Assembly: GCA_947492185.1 (NCBI GenBank)
Contig: CANLMR010000004.1
Coordinates: forward strand, 186,001 to 250,000
Length of the DNA: 64,000 nucleotides
Origin: an uncultured Tenacibaculum sp.
Lineage (GTDB): Bacteria; Bacteroidota; Bacteroidia; Flavobacteriales; Flavobacteriaceae
Direction: 5' to 3'
Positions 10,109-44,200 of the stretch are shown one piece after another. Below the pieces are notes generated by a model. The model saw only the letters and a program-made list of their open reading frames with translations. It searched no databases and was not told the origin of the DNA. The stretch's first letter is position 1; every line of letters starts with the position of its first letter. The translations under genes were made by a program, and so were the position numbers.

Positions 10109-10129
10109 AAAATACTTTTCTATGGTAAA

Positions 10130-10155
10130 GACAAATCAATTTACAAGTTGTTACA
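10130..10155 (-). promoter_or_regulatory. Putative ECF-sigma promoter of the second sigma operon
   Basis: On the minus strand TGTAAC (10155 down to 10150) is followed after exactly 16 nt by TGTC (10133 down to 10130) and TTTACC. This is the same architecture as at 990-1015. It ends 21 bases upstream of the start codon at 10108. Confidence 0.4.
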
Positions 10156-10215
10156 CTTTTTTGTTTTATTATTTAAAATCTTAATAAAATTGTTAGTAAA
10201 GTGATTGATTGATAA

Positions 10216-10246
10216 TTTAAAAATATTAAAATATCTTCTATATTTG
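10216..10246 (+). promoter_or_regulatory. Putative promoter of HMG-CoA lyase gene
   Basis: TATATTTG (10239-10246) matches the Bacteroidota -7 element TAnnTTTG. Nineteen nt upstream is TTTA (10216-10219), one mismatch from the -33 TTTG. The start codon follows the -7 box by 5 bases, so the transcript could be leaderless. Confidence 0.4.
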
Positions 10247-10251
10247 GCATA

Positions 10252-11121: not shown

Positions 11122-11933
11122 TGAAAATTAAATTTTTAATAATATTCTTCTTAAGTGCTATAATCCCTATGGATTCGCCTAGTGACAATGATGTTACTTT
11201 AGGGTCATGGGAGATTAAGAATGGAATATTTATTGAAAATAATGATGAGGAAACTAATATTGCAAGATATAATTGGAATATATTTTATAATATGTTTCCT
11301 AAGCGAATTACCCAACGTTACATAAAAAAACTAGTTTTAATGACCGATGGAGAGGATGAAAAAACCGGAGCATTAGGAGCATTAAACGATAAAAATAATG
11401 AATGGCAATTAGTTCTAGATCCTATTGATGTTGATTTTACAAGTAAAGATCAAACAAGAATTTCTCAATCAATTTACACATTAGTTCACGAATTTGGTCA
11501 TTTATTAACTTTAAACCACACTCAAATTAAACCCGCTAAAAAAAGGGAACAAGAAAAGGGAGAACCTTATGTTACTATAGAAGGAGTGGCTGTAAAAAAT
11601 AGTTATATTAATAAATTTGTTAATGAATTCTGGGGTGGAGGACTTTTAACGGAATGGGATTATATTCAACGTAATTTTTGTGTTACAGAACAAAAAAGTT
11701 GTTTAGAAAAACTATATGGATTGTACAAAGATAATTACACTGACTTTTTAACTGATTATGCTGCTGAAAGCCCAGAAGAAGATATAGCAGAAAGCTGGAC
11801 TGCTTTTGTTTTGGGAGAAAAAATTGATGATCCCGAAACTATAGCCGAAAAGAAAATTAATTTCTTCTATAAATTTGAAGAGTTAGTATACTACAGAAAA
11901 GTGATTAGAAAAAATATACGTAAGTATCAATAG
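11121..11933 (+). CDS. Putative exported zinc metallopeptidase
   Basis: This 270-residue protein has a hydrophobic N-terminal segment (probable signal peptide, about residues 1-17). The zinc motif HEFGHLLTLNH (His123, Glu124, His127, His133) has the HEXXHX5H spacing of metzincins but lacks their usual Gly. A later ESPEEDIAESWTAF supplies acidic residues that could complete the site. I do not recognise the exact family; similar proteins are annotated as putative zinc-binding metallopeptidases. The start overlaps the HMG-CoA lyase stop by 1 nt, so the two are co-transcribed, though a functional link is not obvious. Confidence 0.6.
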   Translation: MKIKFLIIFFLSAIIPMDSPSDNDVTLGSWEIKNGIFIENNDEETNIARYNWNIFYNMFPKRITQRYIKKLVLMTDGEDEKTGALGALNDKNNEWQLVLDPIDVDFTSKDQTRISQSIYTLVHEFGHLLTLNHTQIKPAKKREQEKGEPYVTIEGVAVKNSYINKFVNEFWGGGLLTEWDYIQRNFCVTEQKSCLEKLYGLYKDNYTDFLTDYAAESPEEDIAESWTAFVLGEKIDDPETIAEKKINFFYKFEELVYYRKVIRKNIRKYQ

Positions 11934-11948
11934 AATTTAGCCTCTGCT

Positions 11949-25275: not shown

Positions 25276-27765
25276 TTGAAAATCAGACATCTACTATTAA
25301 TAATTATAATTGTCCCCCACCTAATAAATAGTCAAAATCTAGAGAAAATAGGGAAATCTCCACTCTTTAGATTGACAGGTGGTATTGGCTTGAATTCTGT
25401 TTATTTTAACGGAGATTCAAATAGGGAACCGTTTACTTATTTTTTATCAGGAAATGTAAATCTGAATATTAGTGATGTCTATAATATTCCTTTTTCTTTT
25501 TCTTACTCTAATAGTAAATTTCAAACCAATACGCCTTTTACTTTCAATAGGTTAAGTATGCATCCTAGCTATAAGTGGGTAACTGCTCATATTGGAGATG
25601 TAAATGTAAGTTTTTCACCTTATACTTTAAATGGACATCAATTTACAGGTTTAGGGTTGGATTTATCTCCAAAAGATAAATTTAAAATCAACTTAATGTA
25701 TGGAAGGCTACTAGAAGAAAGAGAGTTCGATCCCGAAAACATTAGTAGTGCTGCAAATTACAGAAGAATAGGATATGGATTCAAAACTTCATATCAATTT
25801 GATAAATTTAAGTTAGGTACTATCTTTTTTAGAGCTTCAGATGATGTTGCATCATTAAAAAATGCAATTCCAACAGAAAGCGAAGTGCTACCAAAAGATA
25901 ACACTGTAATTAGTTTCGATGCAGAGGCTACACTTTTTGAAAAATTGAAATTTAGAGGAGAATTTGCCTTATCTGCATTAACTGAAGATATTAGAGTTAA
26001 TGGAGTTAGTGATCATTTTGCTTCATTTTTGGTTTCAGATAATCCAACTACACAATACTATAAGGCTTTTAATTTAAATTTTGCTTATCAAGTTGCAAGC
26101 GGAACTATTGGGCTAGGTTATGAACGAATAGATCCTAATTACAGAACATTAGGTGGGTACTTTTTTAATAACGATTTAGAAAATATAACCATAAATGCAA
26201 CTCAACGTATTTTTAAAGATAAAGTGACTGTAAGTTTTAATGGAGGTTTACAGAATGATGATTTAGATAATACGAAAGCTACTCAATTGAGTAGACTAGT
26301 TATGGCATTAAATGTAGCTTACAACGCTAGTGATAAATTAAATATTACTACAGGATACTCTAGCTTTCAGTCTTTTACCAATATTAAAAATCAATTTGAT
26401 TTTATTAATGGAGTTTCTCAAATAGAAGAACAATTAGATCAAGATAATTTCGCGCAAATTTCTCAGAATGCTAATATTAATGTGAATTATAAGCTAAAAG
26501 AGACAGATTATAATAGTCAGAATTTAAACGTTAGTTTTTCTTTTCAAGATGCAGAAAATAGAATAGGAGAGGAAGAAAGAACTGAAGATAGTTCAGTTTT
26601 TTATAATGCAAATTCAGTATACACAATAAATTATCCACAATCTGATTTTGGAATTTCAGGAGCTTTAAATACAAGTTTTAGTACACTTGGCGCAGAGAAA
26701 AGTGTCATATTAGGTCCAACTGTTTCTGCTACTAAAGGTTTTTTAGAAAAGAAATTAAAAGTTAATGGATCTGTAGGGTATAATAAAAGTATGGCCAATG
26801 GTATTAGTCAAGGAGATGTTACTAATGTTAGAATTGGTAGTAGATATGTGTATCAGAAAAAACATAATTTTAGTTTAAATGGATTATATCAATTAAGAAA
26901 TTCATTGACAAACAATACTAGTAGTTTTACACTTACTTTTGGTTATAATTATAGTTTTGGTCTTTTTAATTCTAAAGATATTCGATTTAGAAAAAGGCAA
27001 AAGGTTAAGAAAGCAAAAAATAAAAAAGAGCTAGCAGAGAAAAAAGAAAAAAAGAAAAAACCAGCTATTAATTTTACCTATAAAGATTCATTATATATTG
27101 GTTCGATATATCAAGTTGATAATAAAATTAAAAAACTAATTAAATCTAATGTTTTCAATGGATTACCAAAATCAGTTTTGTATGAATTACAAAAAGAAAG
27201 AATTGAAATCGCATCAGAAAGAAAGCATAAAGTTTATAAAGTTAAAGCAGTAAAATTATTGAAGAAAGCCTATACTTCAATAGGTAACAAGCAAGAATAT
27301 AATAAATTGCTTTTTGAAAGTTTAAATGCTTTAGAAGAAGATGTTAGCTCTGTTGATTTTGCAATAGAGAAATCTTTTGTAGAAAACAGAAAAGAAATTG
27401 TTAAGAGCCCTCTATGGAATTTATCTGAAGACGAAAAGTCTGATTTTTCTAAAGAAATTCAGGTTAAATACAGAAGAAAATTAAAAGTATATGAGAAGTC
27501 TCTTAAAAAATTATTAGTACATCGTTGGGTTTTAAATGAGCTCGAGAAATATAAAAATATAGATAAAGTAAATAAAGGTTCTGAGTTGTTAAGTGAATTT
27601 GAAAATTCACTTGGTATTGAAGCATATAAAATGCTAGAAATGAAAGAAAAGAATCAAAAAATAAAATTATATTTGCAAAAATCTATTATAATATTTTTAA
27701 CAAAAAAATCAGAAAAAAATATTGATAAAAATCAATATGAATTAAGATATATCAACCAAGACTAA
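25276..27765 (+). CDS. Large outer-membrane beta-barrel protein with Lys-rich C-terminal extension
   Basis: This 829-residue protein has a signal peptide (cut near LINSQN). Residues about 25-575 show continuous alternating aromatic/polar strands (for example VTAHIGDVNVSFSPYTLNG, FSLNGLYQLRNSL) typical of an outer-membrane barrel. After about residue 575 it changes to a Lys/Glu-rich helical region (KKAKNKKELAEKKEKKKK) of about 250 residues, probably periplasmic or peptidoglycan-facing. The start is TTG 25276. It lies 22 bp before the TANFOR toxin-like gene, making it a candidate export or anchoring partner. I recognise no named family; it is not PorP/SprF-sized. Confidence 0.65.
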   Translation: MKIRHLLLIIIIVPHLINSQNLEKIGKSPLFRLTGGIGLNSVYFNGDSNREPFTYFLSGNVNLNISDVYNIPFSFSYSNSKFQTNTPFTFNRLSMHPSYKWVTAHIGDVNVSFSPYTLNGHQFTGLGLDLSPKDKFKINLMYGRLLEEREFDPENISSAANYRRIGYGFKTSYQFDKFKLGTIFFRASDDVASLKNAIPTESEVLPKDNTVISFDAEATLFEKLKFRGEFALSALTEDIRVNGVSDHFASFLVSDNPTTQYYKAFNLNFAYQVASGTIGLGYERIDPNYRTLGGYFFNNDLENITINATQRIFKDKVTVSFNGGLQNDDLDNTKATQLSRLVMALNVAYNASDKLNITTGYSSFQSFTNIKNQFDFINGVSQIEEQLDQDNFAQISQNANINVNYKLKETDYNSQNLNVSFSFQDAENRIGEEERTEDSSVFYNANSVYTINYPQSDFGISGALNTSFSTLGAEKSVILGPTVSATKGFLEKKLKVNGSVGYNKSMANGISQGDVTNVRIGSRYVYQKKHNFSLNGLYQLRNSLTNNTSSFTLTFGYNYSFGLFNSKDIRFRKRQKVKKAKNKKELAEKKEKKKKPAINFTYKDSLYIGSIYQVDNKIKKLIKSNVFNGLPKSVLYELQKERIEIASERKHKVYKVKAVKLLKKAYTSIGNKQEYNKLLFESLNALEEDVSSVDFAIEKSFVENRKEIVKSPLWNLSEDEKSDFSKEIQVKYRRKLKVYEKSLKKLLVHRWVLNELEKYKNIDKVNKGSELLSEFENSLGIEAYKMLEMKEKNQKIKLYLQKSIIIFLTKKSEKNIDKNQYELRYINQD

Positions 27766-27787: not shown

Positions 27788-30700
27788 ATGAAAAGAAAAG
27801 TCCTCCTTTCGCTTTTTTCATTTGTATTATCTATTAATCTATTTGCTCAACAGTTTCCTGTTAATATTATTCCTAGAGTAAAAGCTCCAGCACCTATAAA
27901 TTTTTATAATTATGCTGATGATACTGCTTTACAAGGACCAATAACTGTACAGGTTTTCTTAAATGATTTAACCGTTTCAAATAGACAAATTCGCTTAAAA
28001 ACATATTTCGAAGGAGGGAATATTAATTTTACAAGTAAAGATTTTGTTATTGGAGCTCAAGATCTATTTATAGAAGGAGGAATTCCTTTAACGTTAACTA
28101 ATGCCGAATTAGCACCTTATTATAGATTTGAAAATATTCAAGGTATTGGACAAAATGTTTATGCACAGGCAATTCCTGAAGGCACTTATAATTTTTGTTT
28201 TGAAGTTTACGATTTTATTTCTGGAGCTAAACTTTCAGATAAGAAATGTGCAACGGTTTTCATCTTTAAAAATGAACCACCAATTTTAAATTTACCTTTT
28301 AATGGTAAAAATATTGAACCTAGTGATTTTGAAAATATTGTTTTTCAATGGACACCAAGACATATTAATGTTAGTAATGTTGAATACGATTTTAGTATTG
28401 TAGAAATTTGGGATCATAATGTAGATCCTCAAACGGCATTTTTATCCCAAGCTCCTATTTATGAAGAAACAGTAAGAACAACTAGTTTGTTTTATGGTCC
28501 AGATAAACCTTTATTGTTAGCAGGAAGGAAATATGCTTGGAGGGTTAGAGCAAGAGCATTACAAGGTTTAGAGGAAATAGGATTGTTTAAAAACGAAGGG
28601 TATAGTGAGATTTTTTGGTTTTCAAGAACAGCACCTTGTCAAATTCCAGATGGAGTTTCAGGTGAACCTAAAGGAACTTCTAAAATAAATGTCTTTTGGG
28701 ATCAAGATCCTACATTACACTCAGAATATATTATAGCGTATCGTGAAGCTAATAATCCAGATGCAAATTGGTTTACTAAAAAAACTAATAGTGCTTGGGC
28801 AACAATATGGGATTTAAAAGCTGGTACTGCTTATGAATTTAAAGTTAAAGGAAAATGTACATATCAATATAGTGAGTATTCAGAATTGCAATATGTAACT
28901 ACAGATATTGTACAAAATGAAGATGCAAATTACAATTGTGGAATCGTTCCAGATGAAGTAGCAATTTCTAACAGAGAACCACACCCAGGATTAAATATTG
29001 GAGATCAAATAACTGCAGGAGATTTTAAAGTTACTGTTACTGAAATTCAAAGTCAATCTAATGGAATACTTTCAGGAAAAGGTTTTGTTGAAATCCCATA
29101 CTTAAAGTTTGCAAAATTCGGAGTAACATTTACTAATATTTTAGTAAATACTGATGCGCAATTAGCTGAAGGAGAAATAGTAACATTATATGATCCTGAA
29201 TTTGGAGAAGGAGCTTCAATGACTGTAGATGTAAATATCAATATATCTGAAGGTATTAATGGAGATTCTAATGAACTTGATGATACTGTTGAAGTTGATT
29301 TTGTTATTGATACAGTTGAGATTGATGCTAATGGTGCTATTGTTGTTACAGGAACAAATGGAGAAACAGCTACAATTCCTGGAGACGATGACGTAAATAT
29401 AGTAAGTTCTAATGGAGATGTATGGTCAGTTGGTGAAGATGGTACAATTACAAAACAAGAAGGAGCTCAAGGAGGAGCAGTTTCTGATGCTACAACAAAT
29501 GGTTTAGATTCTAATGGTAATGTTACTTCTATTACTGCAAAAGGAATTACAATAGAATTTGAACCATCTGGTTACTATCATTTTGATGAGTTACCAGAAA
29601 ACACTTCTGCTACTTTTGAAAAAGAGTATAAAATTCTTGATACTGAATCAGGCAAATATAGAGTGCCATACAAAGCAATTTCAGATAATAACGGAGAAGA
29701 TTTTATCAATGCTAAAGTAACTATTACTGATACTTCTATAATTAAAGATAGTATTGTATTTAAAACTAAAGATGGAGCTAAAATTCCTGTTGAATGGAAT
29801 GGAGACATTGCAAAACTACAATTGAAAAGAAAGTTTGACTATGTTGACGAGGAAATCTTTGCAGTAGTTAAATCTAAAAATAATGGAAAATACGATGTTG
29901 CAGGTAGTGTTGTTACTGCTCATTTAGCTTCAGAACAATTAGATCCAATAAATGTAACACTTGTTCCTGTAGGAATTGACGGAGTATCTGACGAAGTTAA
30001 AAATGGTGTAAAAGAAATTTATGCAAAAGCAGGAGTTCGTTTAAATATCCAAGATGTTAAATCAATTTCTCCTGAAGAAATATATGGTTGGGATAAAGAT
30101 GGTGATAATAGATTAAGTGTTGGTGATAGTAATTTACTTTCTCATTATACAGATGAAGAAGCTGTTTTCAATAGTTATATAAAACAACAAAGTTATTATA
30201 ATAACAAAACATATTACGTTTTTGTAACTAATGTTTCAGTTAACAAAACAGATGTAAATGGTTTCATGCCATTAAAAAGACAGTTTGGATATGTGTTTAC
30301 TGCTAATGCGAATTCTGCTACTAAGCAAATCCGTACAATGGCTCACGAATTAGGTCATGGTATTTTTGGACTAAAACACACTTGGGATGAATACAAATTT
30401 CCACAAGGAGCTACAGACCACTTAATGGATTATGGAAATGGAACAACATTAAATCATTTAGATTGGAAGAAAATTCATGCACCAGGAATTAAAATTTATT
30501 GGTTCCAAGGAGATGAGGATGGGGAACATATTACAGAGAAAAATGAATTTCCTGATATGTTTCTAAACTCGGATAAGAAATCTTTTAGTTTTATTACTCC
30601 TTCTGGTGATTTTGTTGATCTTCCGAAATCAGTTAGAAACGTAACTTTTACTTTCGGAATTTATGATTTACAAAGAAGTAAAGATATTGTCACTGGATGT

Positions 30701-33700
30701 CTTTATGGTTTTGAGATTGATGAGAAAAAATTTGTAGCCCATTATGATGAGAATTCATTTTATGGTTATAAAAGCGGGAATGAATACTATGATTTTAGTA
30801 AATATTTAAATGATAATGGTTACAAAGGTTTTGAAGATAAGATTGTTATGGGGCTTCCAAACTCTAGCAATTATGTCATTACTAAATTTGAAGCTAAAGC
30901 ATTAGACATTTATAATACTAATTCAAAGATTTTAAGTGAAAGTAATTTTAAGATTATTCCTTTTTCAAATGCAAATAAAGCAGTAGGGAAAAATAAAACT
31001 TATTCTTATCCTAAAGCTTTAATTGGTGATAAGGCTGATGATCTTAATTTAGAAGTGTATTCAAAATTACTTTCTAAACATAATAAAAAACCCACATTAC
31101 TTTCAGTATTAAAAATAATTCAGTTAGCGAATTCGTATGAAAAAATGTATAAAACATTTGATGAATGTATAGACGAAGAAACTAACAAATCATGGTATCA
31201 TAATGCTAATAAATTTTTCGATTTTGTTTTTGATACTACAGGGACTTTAGATTGTTATATTAATATTATTCCAAATGCTAAAGAGTTAATTAACTCAAAT
31301 AATAAATTAGAATTTTATACTCTTTATTTAGAAGCTTTTAAAAACTATTTAAAAGGAAATGTTGATGCTTGTGGAAGCTTGCTTTCAAGTATTAATAAGG
31401 ACAGCTCTGTAGGTGCTATAGAACTTTGTTTGAGTCTTTTGTCAAATAAGGATATTGAAAAAATACCTACAGATAAAAGATTATTAGCTATAAGTATAAT
31501 GCTAGATGAGTGGTGGGTAGATAATAGCCAAGAAACTCAATTGGTTAGACTTATCGGAAATGTCACCAAAGAAAATTCTGATGCTTTTCTAAAAGGTTTA
31601 TTAGGAAAATCTTTAATAGAAGGGGAAGATTATTCATTAATTAGAAGATTAACTTACAAAGTAGATAATGATCATACATGGTTAACTGAAGATAATTATT
31701 TAGGCTTGATGAAGGCGTTAACTGTTATTGCTTTAAAATCAAATGATTTTAAAACAGCAGCATTAGCTTATAGTGATGAAGACTTTTTAAAGCATAACAT
31801 AAATTTCTATCATAGGAGTTTTTGGGATGGAGTTAAAGAAACAGGAGCAACATCATTCAATATTATGTATGTAAAATGTAGTCCTGATACTACTGTCGAT
31901 TGGTATTCCGATGATTCTGTAGATATTAGTATTCAGAATGTACTTTCTTGTAACTTAATTGAATATCCAACAACTGAACCTCTTAGAGTAAGTCCTTTAA
32001 AACCAATTTGGTTTATAAATAAGTCATCATTAAGTATGCTTAGTGATTACAATAAAAAAGGACCTGTACTAGCGCCAGCTATTTTAGCATATTATGCAAA
32101 TGATGTTGGGAATACTAAAAATATAATTGATGGTATTGAAGCTGCAATTGATGTTGCTACATTAGCAACAGGATATGGAGCAATTGCTAAAGCTCCTTCA
32201 GCACTTAGAAAGGCGTTTATAATTGCAGATATGATTGGTGCTGGTGTTAATATAACTTTAAATTCATCTTCAGAGAATTTAAGCCCAGGTGCGAAAACTG
32301 TATTGCAAACATTAAACGTATTAACTGCTGTAGTAGCAGTTGGTGAATTAGGTTCAGGAGGAATAAAAAGCTTAAAAGCATTATATAAAAAAGCTAAGAA
32401 TAATACCAAAAGTCTTCCGTCTAAAAAACAAGTAGATGACTTTTTGAACAATCTTTTGGATGATAAAGTTACTCCAGATGAAATAGCAGAGATTGGAGCT
32501 AATAAAATTAAAGAAGCAGAAATATGGTTAAAAACTATAGAAGCAGAAAAACAGGCAAGTAATTCCATAGATCTAGCTTTAAAGGCAAAGAATGCTAGAG
32601 CAAAATTATTATTAGTTAAAAAGCTATTAAAAATAGATTCTAAGGATATTAAAAGTGCAATTAAATTAACTGATGATGAGGCTGGTATTGTAAAGAATTA
32701 TATAAACAAAAGTGATGAATATATAGATGTTATAGTTCATGCAGATGATACAGGAAAAGGCTTCCCTATGGTTGTTGAAGTTGATGGAATTGCTAAAACT
32801 GTTACGTTAAGTGCTACTGAATTTGCCCAAACTCTTAGAAATGTACCTAAAGACAAAAAGATCAGATTATTAAGTTGTAATAATCCTGAAAGTGCTAAAG
32901 AGATTTCTAAAGTTTTAGGAAGAGATATTGTAGGGTCTACGGGAGATATGAAACTTTATGATAATGGTTACATTTATGGTGAAGGATGGTTTATAGCTAA
33001 AGCAGATGGAAAAACAGCAAGTTATACACCTAATAATAATGGTCTAGAAGCTACGAATGACTTTATTCAATTAGGTAAAAAACTGGATGATCCTTTATTA
33101 GAAGCGATAAGAGTAGGAAAAAGAAAAGGTGGTGCTAAAGGAACATTAGCTATAGCATTAAGGAATGCAGGTTTTCCAAAATGTGCAGATGCAGTAGCTG
33201 GCGCATCTTCTGTTAATAAAAATAATAAAAGATTATTACATTCAGATACACAAATACCTGAAGCTGTAAAAGATTATAGTAGAACAAGAAATAACATTAC
33301 TTTTAAGAAAGGACAACCTCCAGCCAAACCTACAGAAACATGGGGAGAGTTTTTTGAAAGAATTAATAAAGTCGTTGAAGAAGGAGGTAATAAACTTCGT
33401 CATTTTAACCAATTTGAATCACATCATATTTTCCCAATAGATTTATTTAAAAATGAATCCTTTAGAAAATGGTATGAATTAGTAGGCCATAAGCATTTTG
33501 ATATTAATGGAAAAGAATCTTTAGAAAATTTAATAATGCTTGAAGCAATTAGAAGAAACCCTGTAAATAAAGAGGGTGTTCCAAATTTTGTAGGAGGAGT
33601 TCACGCTGTTCATAATAAATATACTGAGAAAATCGGAAAATATTTTGACAAATTGTGGCAAGATGCAAAAGGAAATAGTAGTTGGGACGATGCTAAAATA

Positions 33701-33835
33701 GCAAGAGAAATAGATGATGATATTTTAAATTTATCTGAACGTTTAAAACAATCCTTATTAGAAAATTCTGTTCGGGGTAATGTAGAGTTACCTACGTACT
33801 GGGAAACAATTAAGTTTGAGGATCTAATTAAATAA
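27788..33835 (+). CDS. TANFOR-domain polymorphic toxin: zincin, C80-like domain and C-terminal HNH (AHH) nuclease
   Basis: This 2015-residue protein has, in order: a signal peptide (1-21); a TANFOR-type region (about 22-280: FPVNII, LAPYY, QWTPRH, GRKYAWRVRA); an Fn3-like domain (about 285-375); a low-complexity beta stretch; a zincin motif HELGHGIFGLKH (His853, Glu854, His857, His863); a long helical region; a hydrophobic pre-toxin stretch (about 1449-1520); a domain with VIVHAD (His1651) and IRLLSC (Cys1697) resembling C80-type self-cleaving modules of polymorphic toxins; and an AHH-type HNH nuclease with SHHIFP (His1879, His1880) and HAVHNKY (His1939, His1942). There is no T9SS tail. The next gene, 9 bp away, looks like its immunity gene. 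Domain calls are by eye; the toxin role is inference. Confidence 0.8.
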   Translation: MKRKVLLSLFSFVLSINLFAQQFPVNIIPRVKAPAPINFYNYADDTALQGPITVQVFLNDLTVSNRQIRLKTYFEGGNINFTSKDFVIGAQDLFIEGGIPLTLTNAELAPYYRFENIQGIGQNVYAQAIPEGTYNFCFEVYDFISGAKLSDKKCATVFIFKNEPPILNLPFNGKNIEPSDFENIVFQWTPRHINVSNVEYDFSIVEIWDHNVDPQTAFLSQAPIYEETVRTTSLFYGPDKPLLLAGRKYAWRVRARALQGLEEIGLFKNEGYSEIFWFSRTAPCQIPDGVSGEPKGTSKINVFWDQDPTLHSEYIIAYREANNPDANWFTKKTNSAWATIWDLKAGTAYEFKVKGKCTYQYSEYSELQYVTTDIVQNEDANYNCGIVPDEVAISNREPHPGLNIGDQITAGDFKVTVTEIQSQSNGILSGKGFVEIPYLKFAKFGVTFTNILVNTDAQLAEGEIVTLYDPEFGEGASMTVDVNINISEGINGDSNELDDTVEVDFVIDTVEIDANGAIVVTGTNGETATIPGDDDVNIVSSNGDVWSVGEDGTITKQEGAQGGAVSDATTNGLDSNGNVTSITAKGITIEFEPSGYYHFDELPENTSATFEKEYKILDTESGKYRVPYKAISDNNGEDFINAKVTITDTSIIKDSIVFKTKDGAKIPVEWNGDIAKLQLKRKFDYVDEEIFAVVKSKNNGKYDVAGSVVTAHLASEQLDPINVTLVPVGIDGVSDEVKNGVKEIYAKAGVRLNIQDVKSISPEEIYGWDKDGDNRLSVGDSNLLSHYTDEEAVFNSYIKQQSYYNNKTYYVFVTNVSVNKTDVNGFMPLKRQFGYVFTANANSATKQIRTMAHELGHGIFGLKHTWDEYKFPQGATDHLMDYGNGTTLNHLDWKKIHAPGIKIYWFQGDEDGEHITEKNEFPDMFLNSDKKSFSFITPSGDFVDLPKSVRNVTFTFGIYDLQRSKDIVTGCLYGFEIDEKKFVAHYDENSFYGYKSGNEYYDFSKYLNDNGYKGFEDKIVMGLPNSSNYVITKFEAKALDIYNTNSKILSESNFKIIPFSNANKAVGKNKTYSYPKALIGDKADDLNLEVYSKLLSKHNKKPTLLSVLKIIQLANSYEKMYKTFDECIDEETNKSWYHNANKFFDFVFDTTGTLDCYINIIPNAKELINSNNKLEFYTLYLEAFKNYLKGNVDACGSLLSSINKDSSVGAIELCLSLLSNKDIEKIPTDKRLLAISIMLDEWWVDNSQETQLVRLIGNVTKENSDAFLKGLLGKSLIEGEDYSLIRRLTYKVDNDHTWLTEDNYLGLMKALTVIALKSNDFKTAALAYSDEDFLKHNINFYHRSFWDGVKETGATSFNIMYVKCSPDTTVDWYSDDSVDISIQNVLSCNLIEYPTTEPLRVSPLKPIWFINKSSLSMLSDYNKKGPVLAPAILAYYANDVGNTKNIIDGIEAAIDVATLATGYGAIAKAPSALRKAFIIADMIGAGVNITLNSSSENLSPGAKTVLQTLNVLTAVVAVGELGSGGIKSLKALYKKAKNNTKSLPSKKQVDDFLNNLLDDKVTPDEIAEIGANKIKEAEIWLKTIEAEKQASNSIDLALKAKNARAKLLLVKKLLKIDSKDIKSAIKLTDDEAGIVKNYINKSDEYIDVIVHADDTGKGFPMVVEVDGIAKTVTLSATEFAQTLRNVPKDKKIRLLSCNNPESAKEISKVLGRDIVGSTGDMKLYDNGYIYGEGWFIAKADGKTASYTPNNNGLEATNDFIQLGKKLDDPLLEAIRVGKRKGGAKGTLAIALRNAGFPKCADAVAGASSVNKNNKRLLHSDTQIPEAVKDYSRTRNNITFKKGQPPAKPTETWGEFFERINKVVEEGGNKLRHFNQFESHHIFPIDLFKNESFRKWYELVGHKHFDINGKESLENLIMLEAIRRNPVNKEGVPNFVGGVHAVHNKYTEKIGKYFDKLWQDAKGNSSWDDAKIAREIDDDILNLSERLKQSLLENSVRGNVELPTYWETIKFEDLIK

Positions 33836-33844
33836 TGACATTTT

Positions 33845-34555
33845 ATGAAAATATTTGAAATAAGTTTAAACGATGAATTATTTAATGAATGGCACGTTGT
33901 CTTAAGTCAAAAGGTAAACATAAAATACCAAGTTATTGACTGTATTGAAAATAATAAGGAAATAATTCTAGGTAAAGAAGATAAAATTCAAATGTTTCTA
34001 ATTAACATAGAATCAAATAAAGATGCTAGAAAAGAAATACCTTTTCAGTCTGATATTTTGTATTGGAAAAACGATATTACTTTAGATGCTTATTCTCCTT
34101 TCAAAGGAATTATTATAAGTGAAAACCTTAAAAATATTTTATCAAATTATAATTTACCACCACATTTTTTATATCCTTTAGAGATAGTAAATTCAGAAAG
34201 TTTAGAACTAAATAATAATTACTACTTGTTTTATTCCCATGAAAATATGTTAGACTTAACATTATTCAATGAATCGGAATATACATATTACAAAAGGAGA
34301 AAAGAGATAAAGAAAAGTGTCGGCGAATTTAATAGTTTTGAAGAGTATGATAAAGAATATGACAGAGTCTTTGACAAAGAAAATATGAAAATAAAAATAA
34401 CAAATAGAGTAATTTCTTCTGACTATGATCTATTACCTAGTCCATTAAATTATTTACGAGTAAAAGAAAATTTTATGAAAGATAAGAATAAGTTAGAAGG
34501 ATTAATTTTCAAAGAGCAAATAAATCTAACTATTAAACAATCAAATAATCTATAA
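33845..34555 (+). CDS. Probable immunity protein for the upstream nuclease (Imm11/DUF1629-like)
   Basis: This 236-residue protein lacks a signal peptide, as expected for a cytoplasmic immunity protein. It starts 9 bp after the nuclease gene. The middle (NLPPHFLYPLEIVNSE, YYLFYSHENMLDL) followed by an acidic stretch (FNSFEEYDKEYDRVFD) recalls Imm11/Imm43 (DUF1629-type) immunity proteins. Among long secreted proteins it is the only small soluble product of the operon. Toxin binding is not shown by sequence; the call rests on position, topology and a tentative family match. Confidence 0.6.
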   Translation: MKIFEISLNDELFNEWHVVLSQKVNIKYQVIDCIENNKEIILGKEDKIQMFLINIESNKDARKEIPFQSDILYWKNDITLDAYSPFKGIIISENLKNILSNYNLPPHFLYPLEIVNSESLELNNNYYLFYSHENMLDLTLFNESEYTYYKRRKEIKKSVGEFNSFEEYDKEYDRVFDKENMKIKITNRVISSDYDLLPSPLNYLRVKENFMKDKNKLEGLIFKEQINLTIKQSNNL

Positions 34556-34586: not shown

Positions 34587-37500
34587 ATGAAAATAAAGTT
34601 ACCCCTAAGTCTATTACTTGTTTTATGGATGAATGTTTCGGTGTTTGCAACCACAAAACACTCAAGAGATAGTCTAGCTACAAATCCTACAATTAAACCT
34701 GCTAGAATTACGAGTAGCAAAAGTTTACGAAAATTTTCTTCTTTAGATAAATTCGATAAACTTGAAAGTGCTTTGGTTACTAATGCTAAAGCTCAATATA
34801 GTTTTACTGATCAAGGCTTTAAATTTAATACTCCAGATTCAACAGTTAATAAAAAATGGTTGGATATGGCTGAAAACACATTTAAAACTATTGAAGAAAC
34901 GGGTAACTTTATAGATGTACTAACTAAAGATGGTTTAAGTGAACTACCTGTTGCTATTAAACCACAAAGTATTAGTAATGTTAAATATACAGTTGGTATT
35001 GCTAAAGCAGTTTTTAAACCAGCTTTTACAGAATTAACTGTTTTTCTTAAGGTAGAATTGCCAAGTACTAATGAAAAAAGAGGAGAACAAGTTTTAATAC
35101 TTGGAGCTTCAAATGTAAAACTGTCTCACGAAGGAGGTATAATAGGGGATGCCAAACTTCAGTTGATTTCTCAGTTTACAGTAAATTTTAATAGCGGTAC
35201 GGTATTATTAACATTAAAAGGAAGTTTTGAAGAACCAGGAACTTATGCAATGATCGATTGTTCTGGTTTTAAAGAAATGGGCTTAGATGCCAATTTAAAA
35301 TTTGCAAATGGACTATTACATCCTGTAGATAAGAATGGAAAGAAAAAAATTGGATATGTAGAGGCAGACTTTAAAACCACAATTTCAGATTGGAATGATT
35401 TAGTGGTAAATATATCTTTACCTGAATTTGGAGTTAAAGGATTAGAAGGAACAACGTTTAAATTGAATACAGCTGTATTCGATTTTAGTGATTTGCGTAA
35501 TGATCCAGCTACTCCTAGTGCTTATTTAAGTAAATACTATAGTGAAGCTCCTACATTATGGAGAGGAGTTTATGTAAAATCATTGAAAGTAATTTTACCT
35601 CCTGAATTTAAAATCAAAGGGAAATCAGATGAAAGAGTAGCATTCGGAGCAACCGATTTGATTATTGATGGACAGGGAGTTACTGGTAAATTTATTGGTG
35701 AGAATGTTATTGGGTTAAAAGAAGGAGATGCTTCTGGATGGGATTTTTCTTTAGATTATTTCTTATTAGATGTTGAAACTAATAGTTTAAAAGCAGGAGA
35801 GTTTAAAGGGAAATTGGTATTACCAGTTTCGCAATTAGATAGTTTAAAGTATAATGCAGTTTTTCAACCAGGAGAATATAAGTTAAAGGTTGAAACAGAA
35901 AAAGATATTCAGTTTAACGTTTGGAAAGCTGATGTTTTACTAACCAAAGATTCTTATATAGAAATGAAAGTTTCTGATGGAAAGTTTAGACCTAAAGCAA
36001 GTTTAAACGGATCCATGAGTATTGCATCTAGTTTGAAAAAAGATGATAAACCTGCTGACCCTTCTAAAAGCGTAATCAATTTTAAAGGAATTAAGTTTCA
36101 AAAGCTAGTACTTCAAACAGAGTCCCCCAAATTTTCGGTGGAATATTTTGGTATAGAAGGAAAGTTACAATTGGCTAACTTCCCTGTTTCCATCAATGAA
36201 ATTGGTTTAAAAACCCCGTCTGGAAATAAGGCTGAATTAGTGATTGATTTAGCAGTAAACTTGATGTCTGAAGGAGATGGAGGTAATGGAGGTTCTTCTA
36301 AATTAGCGATTAAAGGTAAGTTAGATGAAGAAGGAAATAAATGGAAGTTTGATGGTGTAGACTTAGAAAAACTATTCATTAAAATGGAAGTTGCTGGTAC
36401 CGAACTTAAAGGAGCAATTTTCTTATTTGATGATGACCCAAAATATGGAACAGGATTCGCTGGAGCAGTTGGAGCTAAATTTTCTAAAGGTTTAAAATTA
36501 GAAGTAGAAGCTAAGGCATTATTTGGTAGAAAAGAAACGTTTAGATATTGGTTTGCTGATGCTAAAGTTACTATTCCTGGTGGAATTCCAGTATTTACAG
36601 GGTTTGCTTTAAATGCTTTTGGAGGAGGAGTATATAACCGTATGAAAATGGCGGGTAATACAAATGCTCAAGATGCCGCTTTTAATGAAATAGGAGCGTC
36701 TACTTCTGGTGTAATTTATGAACCTTATGAAGATAATGCTTTTGGTATGAAAGCTTCTGTTGGTATTATTACTCAGAATTCTGAAGAATTATTTCATGCT
36801 ACTGTTGAATTTGGAATGGCATTTAAAAAGAGTGGTGGTTTACAAGAAATATATTTCAAAGGATTTGGTGAGCTAATAGCACCATTGCCTCCAGAATTCC
36901 AAGATGTGGTTGACAGTAATTTGACAGCAATTGCAGAACCTGATAGTAAAGGAGTTCCAGCTCAAAAACCATCAGGGGCTATTTCAGCAAATGTATTTAT
37001 TGGTTTTGATTTTGTAAACGATATTTTTCACTCTACCTCTGAAATTTACATCAATTTTGGAATTTTAAAAGGAGTTGGAGAAAATGGTAGAGCTGGTTGG
37101 CTTGATTTTTACGTTTCACCTGACGAATGGCATTTAATGATCGGTACACCAGAAGATCGAGTAGGAATTAAAATCGATTTAGGAATACTCAAAATTCAAA
37201 TGGACAGTTATTTCATGGTAGGAGATGACTTACCAGGTAGTCCACCACCACCACCAATTGTAGCAGATATTTTAGGTGTAGATGTATCCAAATTGGATTA
37301 TATGAGAGATCTTAATATGCTTGAATCTGGTAAAGGTTTGGCGTTTGGAGCTAGCTTAAGTGTTTCTACAGGTGATTTAACCTTCCTTATTTTCTATGCG
37401 CGTTTTGATGCTGGAGTTGGTTTTGATATCATGTTAAAAGATTATGGAGAAGCTCATTGCAAAGGATCTTCTGAGCCAATTGGAATGAATGGATGGTATG

Positions 37501-39197
37501 CCAATGGACAAGCTTATGCCTATTTATATGGAGAATTAGGTTTGACCTTTAAATTATTTGGTTCCAAAACAAAAATTCCAATCATTAGTGGTGGTGGAGC
37601 TGTTTTACTTCAGGCAAGACTACCAAATCCAGCATGGTTTAGAGGATATCTTGGAGGTAAATTTAACTTATTGGGAGGTTTAATTAAAGGTAGATTTAGG
37701 TTTAAAGTAGAACTAGGAGAGAAATGTGAGATTGTAGGAGGAAGTCCTTTAGATGGTATTGTAGTTATTGGAGATATGAAACCTAAAGATGGTAGTGGAG
37801 ATGTAGATGTTTTTGCTGCTCCACAAGTATCATTTAATTTGCAGATTAATAAAATATTTGAGTTACCAGATGAGACTGGAGATAGAAAATATAAAATCTT
37901 ACTAGATGAATTCTCAGTATCTAATAATGGTCAGAAAATAAAAGGAGAAGTTAAATGGAATAACAATAATGATGTTGCAGCATTTTATTCTCATGAAATC
38001 TTACCTCCACATGCTAAGTTAAAAGCTTATGTACAATTGCATTTTGAAGAATTCAAAAACGGAAGTTGGCAAGTTATTAAATCTGATGGTAAAACATCTC
38101 TAGAAACAAAAGAGGTAAACTTTACCAGTGGAGATGCACCTAAAACAATTCCACTCACAAATATTGAATACATGTATCCAGTAAATGGGCAGCAAAACTT
38201 CTTTATTGACGAGTATAATAAAGGTTATATTAACTTAAAGAGAGGACAATCTTATTTATTTGATGCTGTTCCTAATTGGGACAAAGAAATGATTATGACT
38301 GCTAGCTCGGGAATTAAAATGAAACAAGCTTTTTCTTATAATTCAGCAAAAAAACAAGTAGTCTTTGATTTACCTAAGGATATTGCTATTAGCGAAAACT
38401 ATAATATTAATATTCAATTAGTATCAGAAGGAACAGAAATCGGAGGTAATGTTTCAGAAAGTTATACATCTAAAGATTTAGGAGATGATGATAATACTGC
38501 TGAAGTAAAAAACACTGAACTTGAAGGTACAGCTAGTAAAGACGGACAGCGAGATTTATTAACCTATGATTTTAAAACAAGTTCATATAAAACATTCAGA
38601 AGTAAAATGAATGATATGGATACAAATAAGGAACTGTATGATCATGTAGATTATCCTTACGGGTTAACATTAATCAACGGTATTAAACATCAGGAAGCAT
38701 TCGATTTAGTTGAGTTAGTAGGAAATGAATTCACAGCAGGTAATCCTTTAGTACAAGTTCATGCTAATCTAGATGATCGTTATTATAAGAGTATAATTTT
38801 TCCACTATTATATAAGAACTATCCCTTTGCTGGAGGAGAAATAACTGTAAATAGAGAAACAGATAAAGTAGGAGTTCCTCCTGTAGAAGGTGTAGAACCA
38901 TTAACTTGGTATCTTACGTATTTAGAAAATGGTAATACTGGTGAAATAAATGTACGTAATCCGTACAGATATAATTTAACTCATTATTATTTACAAGATT
39001 ATCAAGATTTAAGTTATCAATTAGTTACATCTGATTATCCTTGGCAGCAAAACCCTCAATATTCTAAAATCGTAACTGAATCTTTTCCTTACATGAGGAA
39101 AGATAAATATAAAACAACGTTTAAATATATTTTACCAGGCCAAGTTAAAATAGGTAGAGACAATACAGTTAAATATACAAACCCATTAGATGAATAA
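34587..39197 (+). CDS. Very large exported beta-rich protein of unknown function
   Basis: This 1536-residue protein has an N-terminal signal peptide (ends near SVFATT). The body is almost entirely predicted beta: residues about 120-680 look like repeated amphipathic strands, and about 690-1070 have barrel-like alternation (YAYLYGELGLTFKLFG, FRGYLGGKFNLLGGLIKGRF) interrupted by a proline linker PGSPPPPPI near 890. The C-terminal third looks like separate beta domains. There is no T9SS tail. It overlaps the Fn3 gene by 8 nt. I recognise no family; it could be a barrel, a filament or a scaffold for the toxin-like protein. Confidence 0.65.
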   Translation: MKIKLPLSLLLVLWMNVSVFATTKHSRDSLATNPTIKPARITSSKSLRKFSSLDKFDKLESALVTNAKAQYSFTDQGFKFNTPDSTVNKKWLDMAENTFKTIEETGNFIDVLTKDGLSELPVAIKPQSISNVKYTVGIAKAVFKPAFTELTVFLKVELPSTNEKRGEQVLILGASNVKLSHEGGIIGDAKLQLISQFTVNFNSGTVLLTLKGSFEEPGTYAMIDCSGFKEMGLDANLKFANGLLHPVDKNGKKKIGYVEADFKTTISDWNDLVVNISLPEFGVKGLEGTTFKLNTAVFDFSDLRNDPATPSAYLSKYYSEAPTLWRGVYVKSLKVILPPEFKIKGKSDERVAFGATDLIIDGQGVTGKFIGENVIGLKEGDASGWDFSLDYFLLDVETNSLKAGEFKGKLVLPVSQLDSLKYNAVFQPGEYKLKVETEKDIQFNVWKADVLLTKDSYIEMKVSDGKFRPKASLNGSMSIASSLKKDDKPADPSKSVINFKGIKFQKLVLQTESPKFSVEYFGIEGKLQLANFPVSINEIGLKTPSGNKAELVIDLAVNLMSEGDGGNGGSSKLAIKGKLDEEGNKWKFDGVDLEKLFIKMEVAGTELKGAIFLFDDDPKYGTGFAGAVGAKFSKGLKLEVEAKALFGRKETFRYWFADAKVTIPGGIPVFTGFALNAFGGGVYNRMKMAGNTNAQDAAFNEIGASTSGVIYEPYEDNAFGMKASVGIITQNSEELFHATVEFGMAFKKSGGLQEIYFKGFGELIAPLPPEFQDVVDSNLTAIAEPDSKGVPAQKPSGAISANVFIGFDFVNDIFHSTSEIYINFGILKGVGENGRAGWLDFYVSPDEWHLMIGTPEDRVGIKIDLGILKIQMDSYFMVGDDLPGSPPPPPIVADILGVDVSKLDYMRDLNMLESGKGLAFGASLSVSTGDLTFLIFYARFDAGVGFDIMLKDYGEAHCKGSSEPIGMNGWYANGQAYAYLYGELGLTFKLFGSKTKIPIISGGGAVLLQARLPNPAWFRGYLGGKFNLLGGLIKGRFRFKVELGEKCEIVGGSPLDGIVVIGDMKPKDGSGDVDVFAAPQVSFNLQINKIFELPDETGDRKYKILLDEFSVSNNGQKIKGEVKWNNNNDVAAFYSHEILPPHAKLKAYVQLHFEEFKNGSWQVIKSDGKTSLETKEVNFTSGDAPKTIPLTNIEYMYPVNGQQNFFIDEYNKGYINLKRGQSYLFDAVPNWDKEMIMTASSGIKMKQAFSYNSAKKQVVFDLPKDIAISENYNINIQLVSEGTEIGGNVSESYTSKDLGDDDNTAEVKNTELEGTASKDGQRDLLTYDFKTSSYKTFRSKMNDMDTNKELYDHVDYPYGLTLINGIKHQEAFDLVELVGNEFTAGNPLVQVHANLDDRYYKSIIFPLLYKNYPFAGGEITVNRETDKVGVPPVEGVEPLTWYLTYLENGNTGEINVRNPYRYNLTHYYLQDYQDLSYQLVTSDYPWQQNPQYSKIVTESFPYMRKDKYKTTFKYILPGQVKIGRDNTVKYTNPLDE

Positions 39198-41295
39198 AAG
39201 TTTTAGAAATTTAGTATTATCATTCATGTTACTGTTTTTAACAGTGATATCTAAAGCTTATGCGCAGAAAGAAATCGGTAATGAGCCTGCTGAAGTAAAA
39301 GCTATTGCTACAGTAACAAAAAAAAATATCATGTTGCGTTGGGGTGTTACAACTCCAACAGCTTGGAAGTATTCTAACAAGTATGGATATATAATTGAAC
39401 GTAGAACAATTGTAAAAGATAAAATTGTATTAAGGCAACCTACAGTAAAGATTTTAACCACTTCACCATTAAAACCTAAACCAATGATGGAATGGAAAGA
39501 ATTTACCGAACGTAATACAAATGCAGCCATTGCTGCACAGGCTTTGTACGGTGATCAATTTGAAGTATCGATGAATGAAGGAGGAAATGGTATTTTAAGC
39601 GTGATTAATCAAGCACAGGTTTTTGAACAACGTTTCACTTTTGCTTATTATGCTGCAGATCAAGATTTTGAAGTTGCTAAATTTTCTGGTCTAGCTTTTA
39701 TAGATGATGATATAGTAGAAGGTGAGAAATATTTATACACAATTAAAGTAGCATCAACTGAAAACTTTAAATATAAAATTAAAAAAGGAGGAGTTTTTAT
39801 AGGAAGTATGGATTATAAACCACTTCCTGAGCCTCAAGAATTTGTTGGGGTTTTTAAAGATAAAACTGCAATTTTAAGTTGGAATTTTCAAATTTTAAAA
39901 AGATACTACACGAATTATATAATTCAAAAATCAGAAGATGGAGGAAAAAGTTTTAAAAGTTTAGGAAATACACCTATAGCAAATTTTGGAGAAAAAGAAA
40001 CCAATCCTTCTAATAGGATGATGTATGTAGATAGTCTTTTTCAAAATAATAAGGCTTATAAATATAGGATCAAAGGAATTTCACCTTTTGGAATAGAAGG
40101 TCCATTTTCAAATATAGTTTCAGGAAAAGGAGTTGATCCATTAATTTATAATCCTTTCTTAACTGATTTGTCATTTCAAGATAATGGTAGTGTTATTTTA
40201 AATTGGGAGTTCCCAAGTCAAGGAGTAAATACATTAAAAAAATTCGAATTGTATAGATCTGACACTCCTAAAGGAAAGTATTTATTAGTGAACCCATCTA
40301 TTGCTAAAAACTTAAGAAGCATTAATATCAATAATTTACAGGCAATTAATTATTATAAAATTGTTGCTATTGGTTATGATGGAAGCCGTCGTGAATCATT
40401 TCCGAAAATGGTTCAACCAGATGATAATACACCACCAGCTGTTCCATTTGGTTTAACAGGCACAATTGATTCTTTAGGTGTTGTAAAAATAAATTGGAAT
40501 AAAAATGTTGAGGTTGATTTTTTAGGGTATAGAGTATTTAGGGCAAATTTAAAAAATGATGAATTTACTCAAATTACATTCAAACCTATTCCTAATAGTT
40601 CGATTATTGATACGGTAAATATTAAAACACTAAATAAAAAAATATACTATAAAGTTCAAGCATTTGATAAGCGATATAATCCTTCAGCTTTTTCACAAGT
40701 TTTAGAATTAAAAAGACCTGATATTGTTCCTCCTACATCACCAATATTTACTTCTTTTGAAGCTAATGTTAATAATGTAAGATTAAATTGGGTTTGTAGT
40801 ACTAGTGATGATGCTAAAGCTACATTATTATACAGGAAAGAAGCTGGTAGTCAATTAGATTGGATGCTAATTAGAGAATTCCCTTTACCAGTTAATAAGT
40901 TTGAAGATACTTCGGTTCAAACAGGAAAAACGTATTTATATACTGTCATTACTGTGGATGAGTCAGGATTGGAGTCAGAACCAATAAGACCTCTGAAAAT
41001 TACGATTTCAGATAATGTAGCTAAAGATCCTATTAAAAAATTTAATGGTATAGTTAATAGAGAATCAAAATACATCCGTTTAAGCTGGAATTATAATGCT
41101 AAAGAAGTAAAAGAGTATGTGTTATACAAAGCAGATGGAGAAAATCAACCAACCTTATTTAAGATTTTTACTGATAAGACAAAAAGTTTTACTGATCGAC
41201 AATTGTTAGTTAATACTAAATACACGTATTTGCTTCAGGCAATTTTTAATTCTGGTGCAAAATCTCCCTTAAAAAAAATCAACCTCAATTACTAA
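39190..41295 (+). CDS. Exported protein with multiple fibronectin type III domains
   Basis: This 701-residue protein has a signal peptide (ends near AYAQKE). It contains about five or six Fn3-like modules of about 90-100 residues, each with a W-core strand (ILSWNFQ, VILNWEF, VKINWNKN, VRLNWVCS, IRLSWNYN) and a late Tyr strand (YYKIVAIGYD, TYLYTVITVDESG). Fn3 arrays are extracellular binding or spacer elements. No T9SS tail is evident, so it probably stays in the periplasm or is assembled with partners. It is coupled to the preceding gene by an 8-nt overlap and lies 3 bp from the SprB-like gene. Confidence 0.75.
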   Translation: MNKSFRNLVLSFMLLFLTVISKAYAQKEIGNEPAEVKAIATVTKKNIMLRWGVTTPTAWKYSNKYGYIIERRTIVKDKIVLRQPTVKILTTSPLKPKPMMEWKEFTERNTNAAIAAQALYGDQFEVSMNEGGNGILSVINQAQVFEQRFTFAYYAADQDFEVAKFSGLAFIDDDIVEGEKYLYTIKVASTENFKYKIKKGGVFIGSMDYKPLPEPQEFVGVFKDKTAILSWNFQILKRYYTNYIIQKSEDGGKSFKSLGNTPIANFGEKETNPSNRMMYVDSLFQNNKAYKYRIKGISPFGIEGPFSNIVSGKGVDPLIYNPFLTDLSFQDNGSVILNWEFPSQGVNTLKKFELYRSDTPKGKYLLVNPSIAKNLRSININNLQAINYYKIVAIGYDGSRRESFPKMVQPDDNTPPAVPFGLTGTIDSLGVVKINWNKNVEVDFLGYRVFRANLKNDEFTQITFKPIPNSSIIDTVNIKTLNKKIYYKVQAFDKRYNPSAFSQVLELKRPDIVPPTSPIFTSFEANVNNVRLNWVCSTSDDAKATLLYRKEAGSQLDWMLIREFPLPVNKFEDTSVQTGKTYLYTVITVDESGLESEPIRPLKITISDNVAKDPIKKFNGIVNRESKYIRLSWNYNAKEVKEYVLYKADGENQPTLFKIFTDKTKSFTDRQLLVNTKYTYLLQAIFNSGAKSPLKKINLNY

Positions 41296-41298
41296 GTT

Positions 41299-44200
41299 AT
41301 GAAAAGAATAATTTTAATAATCAGTATACTATTTACAGCTCTGCCAGTTTTATCTCAGAGTTTTAAGGTAAATTATAGGTTAACAGCAAGACCAGCAAAT
41401 AGTACATACGGTGACGGATGTAATAATAATATTAATGTAAAAATTTTCTATAGAATAAATGGAGGTAGTGAAATAAGTAAACAAATCTTCAATCAAGATT
41501 TAAATGGTGGAGGTGGAACTTATAATTTTCCTCAAACTATTTATGGAGGAGATGTTGTATTTACAAAAGTAGAGGTAAGAACTTCTCGAAATTGGAAAAG
41601 ACTTATAGGAGGTTGTGGAGGTAACGGTTCATTCAATAATTCACTAAGAACAACATCTATTAACAGTAGATGTACTAAATTATTATCAGGTAGCAATTTA
41701 GCTCGTTGGTGGGTAACATCATTAAATATAGATATAAAACCAGTTGTTAATTTAACCCCTAAAAATGTTATTGCTTGTCAATCTGGAGCTGCTGTTGTTA
41801 ATAGTGGATTTCACAGTAGTAAAGCATACAGTGGTATATATAGATGGGAGTTTTTAGATCCAGTAAATACAGTAAGTACTATAACTACTGCATATCAAAA
41901 CTTAATAAATGCAAGTGACCAAGCTTATCAAATTTGGCAAGATTGTGAAAATTTTAGTGGTGGTGGAGGTCCAGGTGATCCTATATTTAGAGCGTCTGGA
42001 AATGTTAAAAAAACAAAGTATGATAATTCAGTTGCAGGAAGACCTCCTATTGGTCCAATACCGGGAGGTAATCCAAGTGCAAACTGTAGAAGATGGTATG
42101 ATCGATATGTAACTGCTTATCAAAAAGTAAGAGATTACACAGGTCAAAAATATTATCCAAGAAAAATCTGGAGAGCCATTCCTAGTGAGAATGGTAAGGC
42201 AATTGCTAATATTACACTTACAGACTTATATTCAAGAGAATCAGATAGATTAAAAGCGTTAACTAACAAGGTAATTAGTATTAGAATAAATCCAAATTGT
42301 AGTGGAGAAGGAGATATTAATACTCCAGTGAGTATATCACAAATCCAATTCTTTTCAGATCCACCTCCTATAACCAAAACTGAATTCAGTTCTCCAACCT
42401 GTTCATATGACCCAATAGATAATTTTAAAATTTTCTTTTCTAGACAATTGTTATCCACAGAACGATTAAACATTAACTTAAAGAAAAAACTATCTCAAGC
42501 TCCCTTTACGTATGAGACGATAGCTAACAATATAAATATTTCCTCGTTTCAAGAAATTACATCAGGTAGTTTATATAGTTATACATGGAATCCTAGTAAT
42601 GGTAATGAGTTACCAGAAGCAGGTGAATATAGAATAGAACTGTCAGGAGCTAGTGGTAATCCTTTTTGTAATAATGGTACTTTACAATATGATTTTAGTA
42701 TAGCTATTCCTCCTAAAGTAAATTTTTTGTCTGCTGTAAAAGAACAAGATGTCACATGTTTTAATGGAAGTGATGGAAAAATAAAAATTACAGCTTCTGG
42801 AGGTTCAAACAGTTTTCAATATAGTATAGATAATAAAGCCACTTGGAGTGCTGCATTTACAAATTCCACAATTATTACTGGAAGAACCGCCGGAACTCAT
42901 AAAATTTGGTTAAGAGATTCAAAAAGTTGTATAGATCAAGACTTTCCAAGTCGTAATGTAACTTTAGCTCCAAAAGCTAAAATTACTCATGTTGTTACAG
43001 CTAATACTAATGAAATTATAAACCCCGGTAAACCTGGTGGAACAGATGGTTCTATTAAAATTAATAGTGTTAGCGGTGGTACTCCTTCGGGTAATAAATA
43101 TGATTATGAAGTACTTTTAAATGGTAATAGTTCAACTATTCTTTCAGGAACAGCTAATGGAACAAGCTCTACAATAATTGAAAACTTACCAAAGGGAACA
43201 CATAAAATTAGATATAGTGATAGTAAAGGATGTGTATCGGAAGCTTATACACTACCAACTTTATCTGATCCGCAAGCGGTCGAGTTTGATCAAGCAATAG
43301 TTAATGCTAAATGTAAGGGAGCGAATGGACAAATAAAAGTTTCTAATGTAAGAGGAGGATATAAAAATTATAAAATTAAAGTAGAAGGTTCAGGAATAAC
43401 TCCTCTTGAAGAAACTAATGTACCACCTAGTACTGAAAAAATATTTAATGTTAAGGCTGGAACCTACAAGATTACAGTTACAGATACTAGATCTGGAATA
43501 AAAGTAAAAAATAGTATAATAGTTGGAGAACCAAATGAAATTATTATTACAAATGTTAATGCTAGTAATATTGATTGTAATGGAGGTAAATCTACAGTAA
43601 CTATTACTACATCTGGAGGACAAACAGGTGTTGTTTATGAATATGCTATTCATAAACCATCAGGTATGGTTTGGCAATCTAGCAATACATTTAGCTTAGA
43701 TGCTAGTCCTACAGTTGGTTACCGTTTTGTAGCTAGAGATAAAAATCAAACATTTTGTAAATCTCAGCCTTCGACAAAAACAACAATAAGCGAACCTACT
43801 AGTATAGTATTAGGAACACCTCAAATAATTGATAATACTATTTTTAATGGTATTACTGGAGAAATACAAATACCTATATCAGGTGGAACTCCAGGATATA
43901 CAGTTACTTGGACAAGAAATGGTTCAAGTATTGGGAAAACAGGAGCAACAATTACAGGACTAACTGCAGGTACTTATATTGCTACAGTAAAAGATTCAAA
44001 ACAATGTACTCTAGTCTCATCGAATATTATAGTAGATGAACCTGATGAATTAAAAGTGTTTGTTACGATTGATTCTGAGATAGACTGTAATGGAGGAAAT
44101 GGTGTTGTTCGTGCTAATCCTTCTGGTGGTTCAGAAAGTTATACTTATAAATGGTATAGAAATAATACGTTAATTTCTGGAGCAAATTCAATTACCTATC

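Follow-up and report, generated by a model that had tools for sequence, protein, structure and literature searches.

Two adjacent genes in a 64,000-nucleotide stretch of contig CANLMR010000004.1 from an uncultured Tenacibaculum sp. (hereafter the window) encode a 2015-aa protein and a 236-aa protein, which we read, with a probability of roughly 0.85, as a polymorphic toxin with a predicted AHH-like nuclease tail and its immunity protein. Among relatives of this locus, tails were swapped between otherwise near-identical proteins, and the next gene changed with the tail. The original prediction, drawn from the nucleotide sequence alone, had described a TANFOR surface protein ending in an AHH/HNH nuclease and followed by an Imm11-like immunity gene; the coordinates, lengths and 9-nt spacing that it gave for both genes matched the open reading frame (ORF) list, and the two ORFs were in the same frame.

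Joint exchange of tails and downstream genes

Relatives were collected in one scan of named genomes with the N-terminal alignment A1, besides which the pattern HELGHG[IVA]F contributed part of the locus set, and comprised 79 loci (from the best 80 of 453 candidates). Together with the window, the set held 80 loci, 77 of them with complete ORFs; the truncated ORFs of L054, L074 and L079 were excluded from complete-ORF counts. The first 900 residues formed one cluster, consisting of the window and 76 relatives, and the last 170 residues of the 77 complete ORFs fell into 46 clusters, 30 of which had a single member. Among the 20 pairs whose N-termini were ≥90% identical, four had their tail cluster in common. 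The exchange was most directly visible between L057 and L070, located on two contigs of one genome, in which every 100-residue block was 95–100% identical up to residue 1700, after which the sequences were unrelated. The conserved N-terminal part was approximately 913 residues long and ended sharply: the stretch FQGDEDGE had a per-residue identity to the window of 0.38–1.00 across 76 relatives, while identity over the 19 residues past residue 913 was at most 0.12.

We then asked which genes followed the tails. Immunity candidates were defined as downstream ORFs of at least 70 aa, no more than 150 nt away and without a match to the flanking gene products p829, p1536 or p701 (Table 1), a filter that retained 67 of the 77 loci. 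A downstream family was common to 27/37 same-tail pairs vs. 28/2174 different-tail pairs (Fisher 7.5e-39, with pairs that are non-independent because related strains are included). Swapped C-termini accompanied by swapped downstream genes, for which the original prediction had suggested looking, were therefore a feature of these relatives. Of the 70 loci in which the next ORF was not p1536, 64 had it within 50 nt. The tail family of the window had two further members, L037 and L057; in each of the three loci, the tail was followed by a gene for a homologue of the 236-aa protein, and L057 had three such genes in tandem. T. skagerrakense (L043) was 73–97% identical to the window per block over residues 1–900, as well as 84% in p829 and 88% in p1536; it had a different tail and yielded no homologue for the 236-aa protein. 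The flanking genes p829 and p1536 stay in place while the tail/immunity cassette changes.

As a separate observation, the uncultured Aquimarina isolate 821-3Z carried TANFOR genes on three contigs (L057, L069, and L070), with N-termini 97–99% identical and differing tails.

Nuclease-like tail and predicted immunity protein

The SHH and HAVHNKY motifs named in the original prediction were present in the tail at residues 1877–1880 (ESHH) and 1939–1945, the latter contributing H1939, H1942, and Y1945 within GVHAVHNKY, and N1914 lay between them. All of these residues (ESHH, N1914, H1939, H1942, and Y1945) were invariant in nine aligned tails, of which the eight others were 32–71% identical to the window. 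Four of the nine members of this tail alignment (A3) matched AHH, with a best E of 8.2e-4. In the residue sets listed in the sections of PMC3482391 consulted, Tox-AHH is characterized by [AG]HH, N, H, H, Y, and Tox-SHH by [SG]HH, H. The tail of the window shares the HNH/EndoVII-type residues HH, N, H, H, Y with these toxins and falls between the two labels, given that a serine precedes HH, as SHH replaces the [AG]HH of Tox-AHH, yet the N, H, H, Y set is complete. We labeled the tail AHH-like and did not place it as a member of the AHH family; it is likely an AHH-like (HNH/EndoVII-type) nuclease.

The assignment of the 236-aa protein to an Imm11-like group, as originally proposed, stood through its relatives and its predicted fold, and did not extend to a family match of its own. 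Imm11 (PF07791, DUF1629) matched three of the eight members of alignment A2 with E ≤ 10, the best reaching 4.2e-4 and staying under the cut-off, and a distant homologue in another genome (G150) passed the Imm11 cut-off with 25.2 vs. 22.1 bits. Imm43 had no match in the Pfam scans. The predicted fold of the 236-aa protein matched PDB 6a4c (MXAN_0049), with 11% identity over the structural match, so that an MXAN_0049-type immunity fold is predicted. PDB sequence searches with A2, with A3, and with alignment A4 of the pre-toxin module described below returned no significant relative. No signal-like N-terminus was found in the 236-aa protein by a crude hydropathy scan, consistent with a site of action in the cytoplasm.

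Partner genes, and proposed processing and export

The window contained a co-directed run of genes encoding p829, the 2015-aa protein, the 236-aa protein, p1536, p701, and a 3621-aa protein, with successive gaps of 22, 9, 31, −8, and 3 nt according to the ORF list (Table 1). The 3621-aa protein had 28 stretches matching the SprB repeat (PF13573), and its C-terminus matched TIGR04183 with 66.7 bits vs. a cut-off of 23, which upholds the original description of a toxin/immunity layout within a surface-adhesin operon. The crude hydropathy scan, which is not a dedicated predictor, indicated a signal-like hydrophobic N-terminus in all proteins of the run except the 236-aa protein, and in the window and 66/77 relatives for the toxin. 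Regarding the TANFOR/Fn3 start of the toxin, the fibronectin type III domain (Fn3) was recovered, while TANFOR (TIGR02542) matched weakly, at 14.3 bits and E 0.03 vs. a cut-off of 67 bits; five of the nine A1 members, window included, matched with E ≤ 0.1, the lowest value being 6.3e-7.

Table 1. Features of the toxin locus, in window coordinates.
Feature	Position	Strand	Basis
p829, exported-looking flanking gene, no assigned function	25276..27765	+	position in relatives' loci
2015-aa TANFOR-type polymorphic toxin gene (main reading)	27788..33835	+	ORF; relatives' shared N-terminus, varied tails
Signal-like hydrophobic N-terminus, residues 1-21	27788..27850	+	crude hydropathy scan
Weak TANFOR (TIGR02542) match, residues 100-158	28085..28261	+	E 0.03, 14.3 bits
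Fibronectin type III domain (Fn3), residues 287-365	28646..28882	+	PF00041 E 7.3e-6
Zincin-like motif HELGHGIFGLKH, residues 853-864, then LMDY	30344..30379	+	HExxHx6H in relatives
End of conserved part (residue 913), start of exchangeable part	30524..30526	+	identity profile, 76 relatives
Pre-toxin module, His and Cys invariant in 7/7 sequences	32585..33112	+	alignment A4
AHH-like nuclease domain (predicted), residues 1871-1969	33398..33694	+	PF14412 19.8-20.2 bits; invariant residues
236-aa predicted immunity protein gene	33845..34555	+	
p1536, exported-looking flanking gene, no assigned function	34587..39197	+	position in relatives' loci
p701, exported-looking flanking gene	39190..41295	+	position in relatives' loci
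3621-aa SprB-repeat adhesin, T9SS type A sorting tail	41299..52164	+	PF13573, TIGR04183

Within the fetched stretches, p829 was found upstream in 68, p1536 downstream in 60, and p701 downstream in 50 of the 77 loci. We also sampled 199 genomes of the same family, counting matches with E < 1e-30 as strong: the TANFOR-type N-terminus, p1536, and p829 had strong matches in the same 15 genomes (15/15), vs. three genomes for p1536 and two for p829 among the 184 without a strong TANFOR match (Fisher 6.0e-20 and 1.0e-20, respectively). At E ≤ 1e-3, the N-terminus was detected in 19, p1536 in 18, and p829 in 20 of the 199 genomes, with weak TANFOR matches in G073, G113, G158, and G179. Given that linked genes are inherited jointly, this co-occurrence indicates a fixed gene set and not a function. 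In G073 (L127 4170-10583, minus strand), a single 2137-aa ORF joined a TANFOR-like N-terminus (24.6% identity, E 1.7e-18) to a following p1536 match (27.2%, E 2.1e-78) and was flanked by relatives of p829 and p701; this locus had no match to the toxin tail or the immunity protein of the window. Gene fusions are usually read as a hint of physical interaction. Conversely, p1536, p701, and p829 relatives occurred together without a detected TANFOR match in G047 (L128 5499-14470) and G181 (L129 2111-10908), which speaks against a strictly dedicated role of these genes. No Pfam match was found for p701. Homologues of p1536 that passed numbered 742, and the names among the 120 listed were hypothetical, uncharacterized or unknown-function protein. 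Given the SprB-like neighbor, we considered p1536 and p701 as possible candidates for SprC and SprD of the gliding operon.

Candidates for processing of the toxin were present on both sides of the cassette boundary. The zincin-like HExxHx6H motif occurred in 78/80 loci, a count biased upward by the search pattern HELGHG[IVA]F, although 18 of these motifs start with HEI or HEM, which that pattern cannot retrieve; an [LMI]MD turn followed the motif in 76/78. Among 30 loci retrieved solely by the N-terminal query (L007–L036, in which L007 is the window, and L017 and L030 are one gene), the motif was present in 15, namely all 14 whose match extended to query residue 838 or beyond, plus L017. It was not found in short TANFOR relatives whose match stops at approximately residue 620 or earlier, and all peptidase-family profile matches of the 2015-aa protein were below cut-off. 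Both L047 and L051, which belong to one tail cluster, had lost the HE pair in the alignment to window residues 852–864, suggesting that cleavage may not be essential. The pre-toxin module, found in a minority of loci, had an Asp, a His, and the Cys of RLLSC invariant in 7/7 aligned sequences and no Pfam match in the window. From the residue pattern alone, a caspase-like protease is a possible but tentative reading, which was not retained as an assignment. In the sections of PMC3482391 consulted, caspase-like and metallopeptidase processing domains are described in other polymorphic toxins.

We propose that the 2015-aa protein would be exported by Sec via its signal-like N-terminus and would then pass to the surface with help from p829/p1536/p701, from the type IX secretion system (T9SS), or from both. 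Proteolysis, for which the built-in zincin is a possible agent, could free the tail, which would enter a competing cell and cleave its DNA, while the 236-aa protein would bind the nuclease in the cytoplasm of the producer. Antibacterial activity, like delivery, processing, and killing, is inferred. Two versions of the surface step compete. That the general T9SS alone exports the toxin, with p829, p1536, and p701 serving the adhesin, comes close to an even chance: T9SS genes were present in the genome (SprA and GldK over cut-off), the adhesin bears a T9SS tail, T9SS export is proposed in PMC7073777, and the partner genes of G047 and G181 occur without TANFOR. Three findings speak against this route: the toxin ends in the nuclease and no T9SS sorting tail was detected on it; p1536 and p829 occur in 15/15 strong TANFOR genomes and in three and two, respectively, of the 184 others; and in G073 a TANFOR-like N-terminus is fused to p1536. 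More tentatively, TANFOR toxins could be the exchangeable cargo of a dedicated p829/p1536/p701 export or display machine built around the N-terminus, with the zincin cutting the tail and any cassette after residue ∼913 being delivered.

Alternatives and known systems

Several results weigh against a functional nuclease–immunity pair. Ten of the 37 same-tail pairs had no downstream family in common. The originally claimed AHH/HNH end held up as AHH-like through its invariant residues and fell short at the family level, as the tail scored 20.2 bits (E 6.3e-4) against Pfam AHH (PF14412), below the cut-off of 22.3, and carries SHH where Tox-AHH has [AG]HH. The predicted structure of the toxin had a predicted local distance difference test (pLDDT) score of 73.8, was low around the active site, and had no PDB relative by Foldseek and VIA-align; given this weakness at the active site, the model neither backs nor excludes an HNH fold. 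For the 236-aa protein, no family match was obtained in Pfam, NCBIfam, PADLOC, and PHROGs at the thresholds used, hhalign against one Imm11 sequence gave probabilities of 0.7% and 3.2% in a poor comparison (one ORF from six loci), and the distant homologues bearing the Imm11/AHH link aligned over 50–140 residues only (E 4e-5 to 7e-4).

The AHH score below cut-off, together with the Fn3 domain, the zincin-like motif, and the adhesin neighbor, would also suit a protein that serves chiefly as a surface adhesin or protease in a SprB-type operon, with a degenerate AHH-like tail and a hitchhiking or chaperone-encoding 236-aa gene. We consider this improbable, given that the tail motif residues are invariant down to 32% identity, that tails swap jointly with the next gene, and that the 236-aa protein is predicted to fold like an AHH immunity protein. 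Targeting of eukaryotic hosts instead of bacteria, in line with the predicted anti-eukaryotic activity that PMC7073777 reports for some TANFOR tails, is more improbable still, as only a producer that is itself at risk would be expected to have an immunity-like gene that co-varies with the tail and whose product has no signal-like N-terminus.

Both the toxin class and the nuclease–immunity pairing into which the toxin/immunity reading places the two genes are already published, and the pair of the window is a new member of the class. The original prediction knew of no such delivery in flavobacteria; this has to be revised, as PMC7073777 (2020) describes TANFOR proteins as polymorphic toxins, with AHH among their C-termini and SprB and T9SS-tail neighbors. 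The locus in the window resembles them in its signal-like N-terminus, Fn3 domain, variable tail, adjoining immunity-like gene, and SprB/T9SS-tail neighbors, and differs in a TANFOR match far under the model cut-off. Neither the zincin-like motif nor p829 and p1536 as partners appear in the parts of this description that were consulted, and its main text lacks the terms peptidase, metallo, zincin, and protease. In searches of open-access papers, we found no release mechanism or dedicated partner genes described for the TANFOR class, and we found in print neither p829/p1536 as partners nor a zincin-like motif where the cassette begins. The locus and its relatives offer testable parts, namely the boundary at ∼913, the zincin-like motif that shortly precedes it, and a pair of uncharacterized genes in 15/15 strong TANFOR genomes, and the boundary provides a route to new toxin–immunity pairs, as the 30/46 single-member tail clusters illustrate.

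The co-occurrence of AHH and Imm11 in polymorphic toxin loci, stated in the original prediction, agrees with PMC3482391 (2012), where the sections consulted list Imm11/DUF1629 as a partner of Tox-AHH and Tox-SHH, Bacteroidetes included, and do not contain the term TANFOR. An AHH nuclease with a neighboring immunity protein is also represented by MXAN_0050/MXAN_0049 of Myxococcus xanthus (PMC12077131, PMC6627406), and in the former source MXAN_0049 is reported to neutralize the AHH nuclease in an experimentally tested pairing. The window shares with this pair the adjoining immunity protein, with a predicted fold matching PDB 6a4c, while delivery differs: a type VI secretion system (T6SS) with PAAR proteins in M. 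xanthus, and a TANFOR surface protein in the window.

Elsewhere, on the minus strand of L122 (G094, 8881-11957), the gene for an 805-aa protein that is not of the TANFOR type and has an AHH domain over cut-off was overlapped by one base by a gene whose product is distantly homologous to the 236-aa protein.
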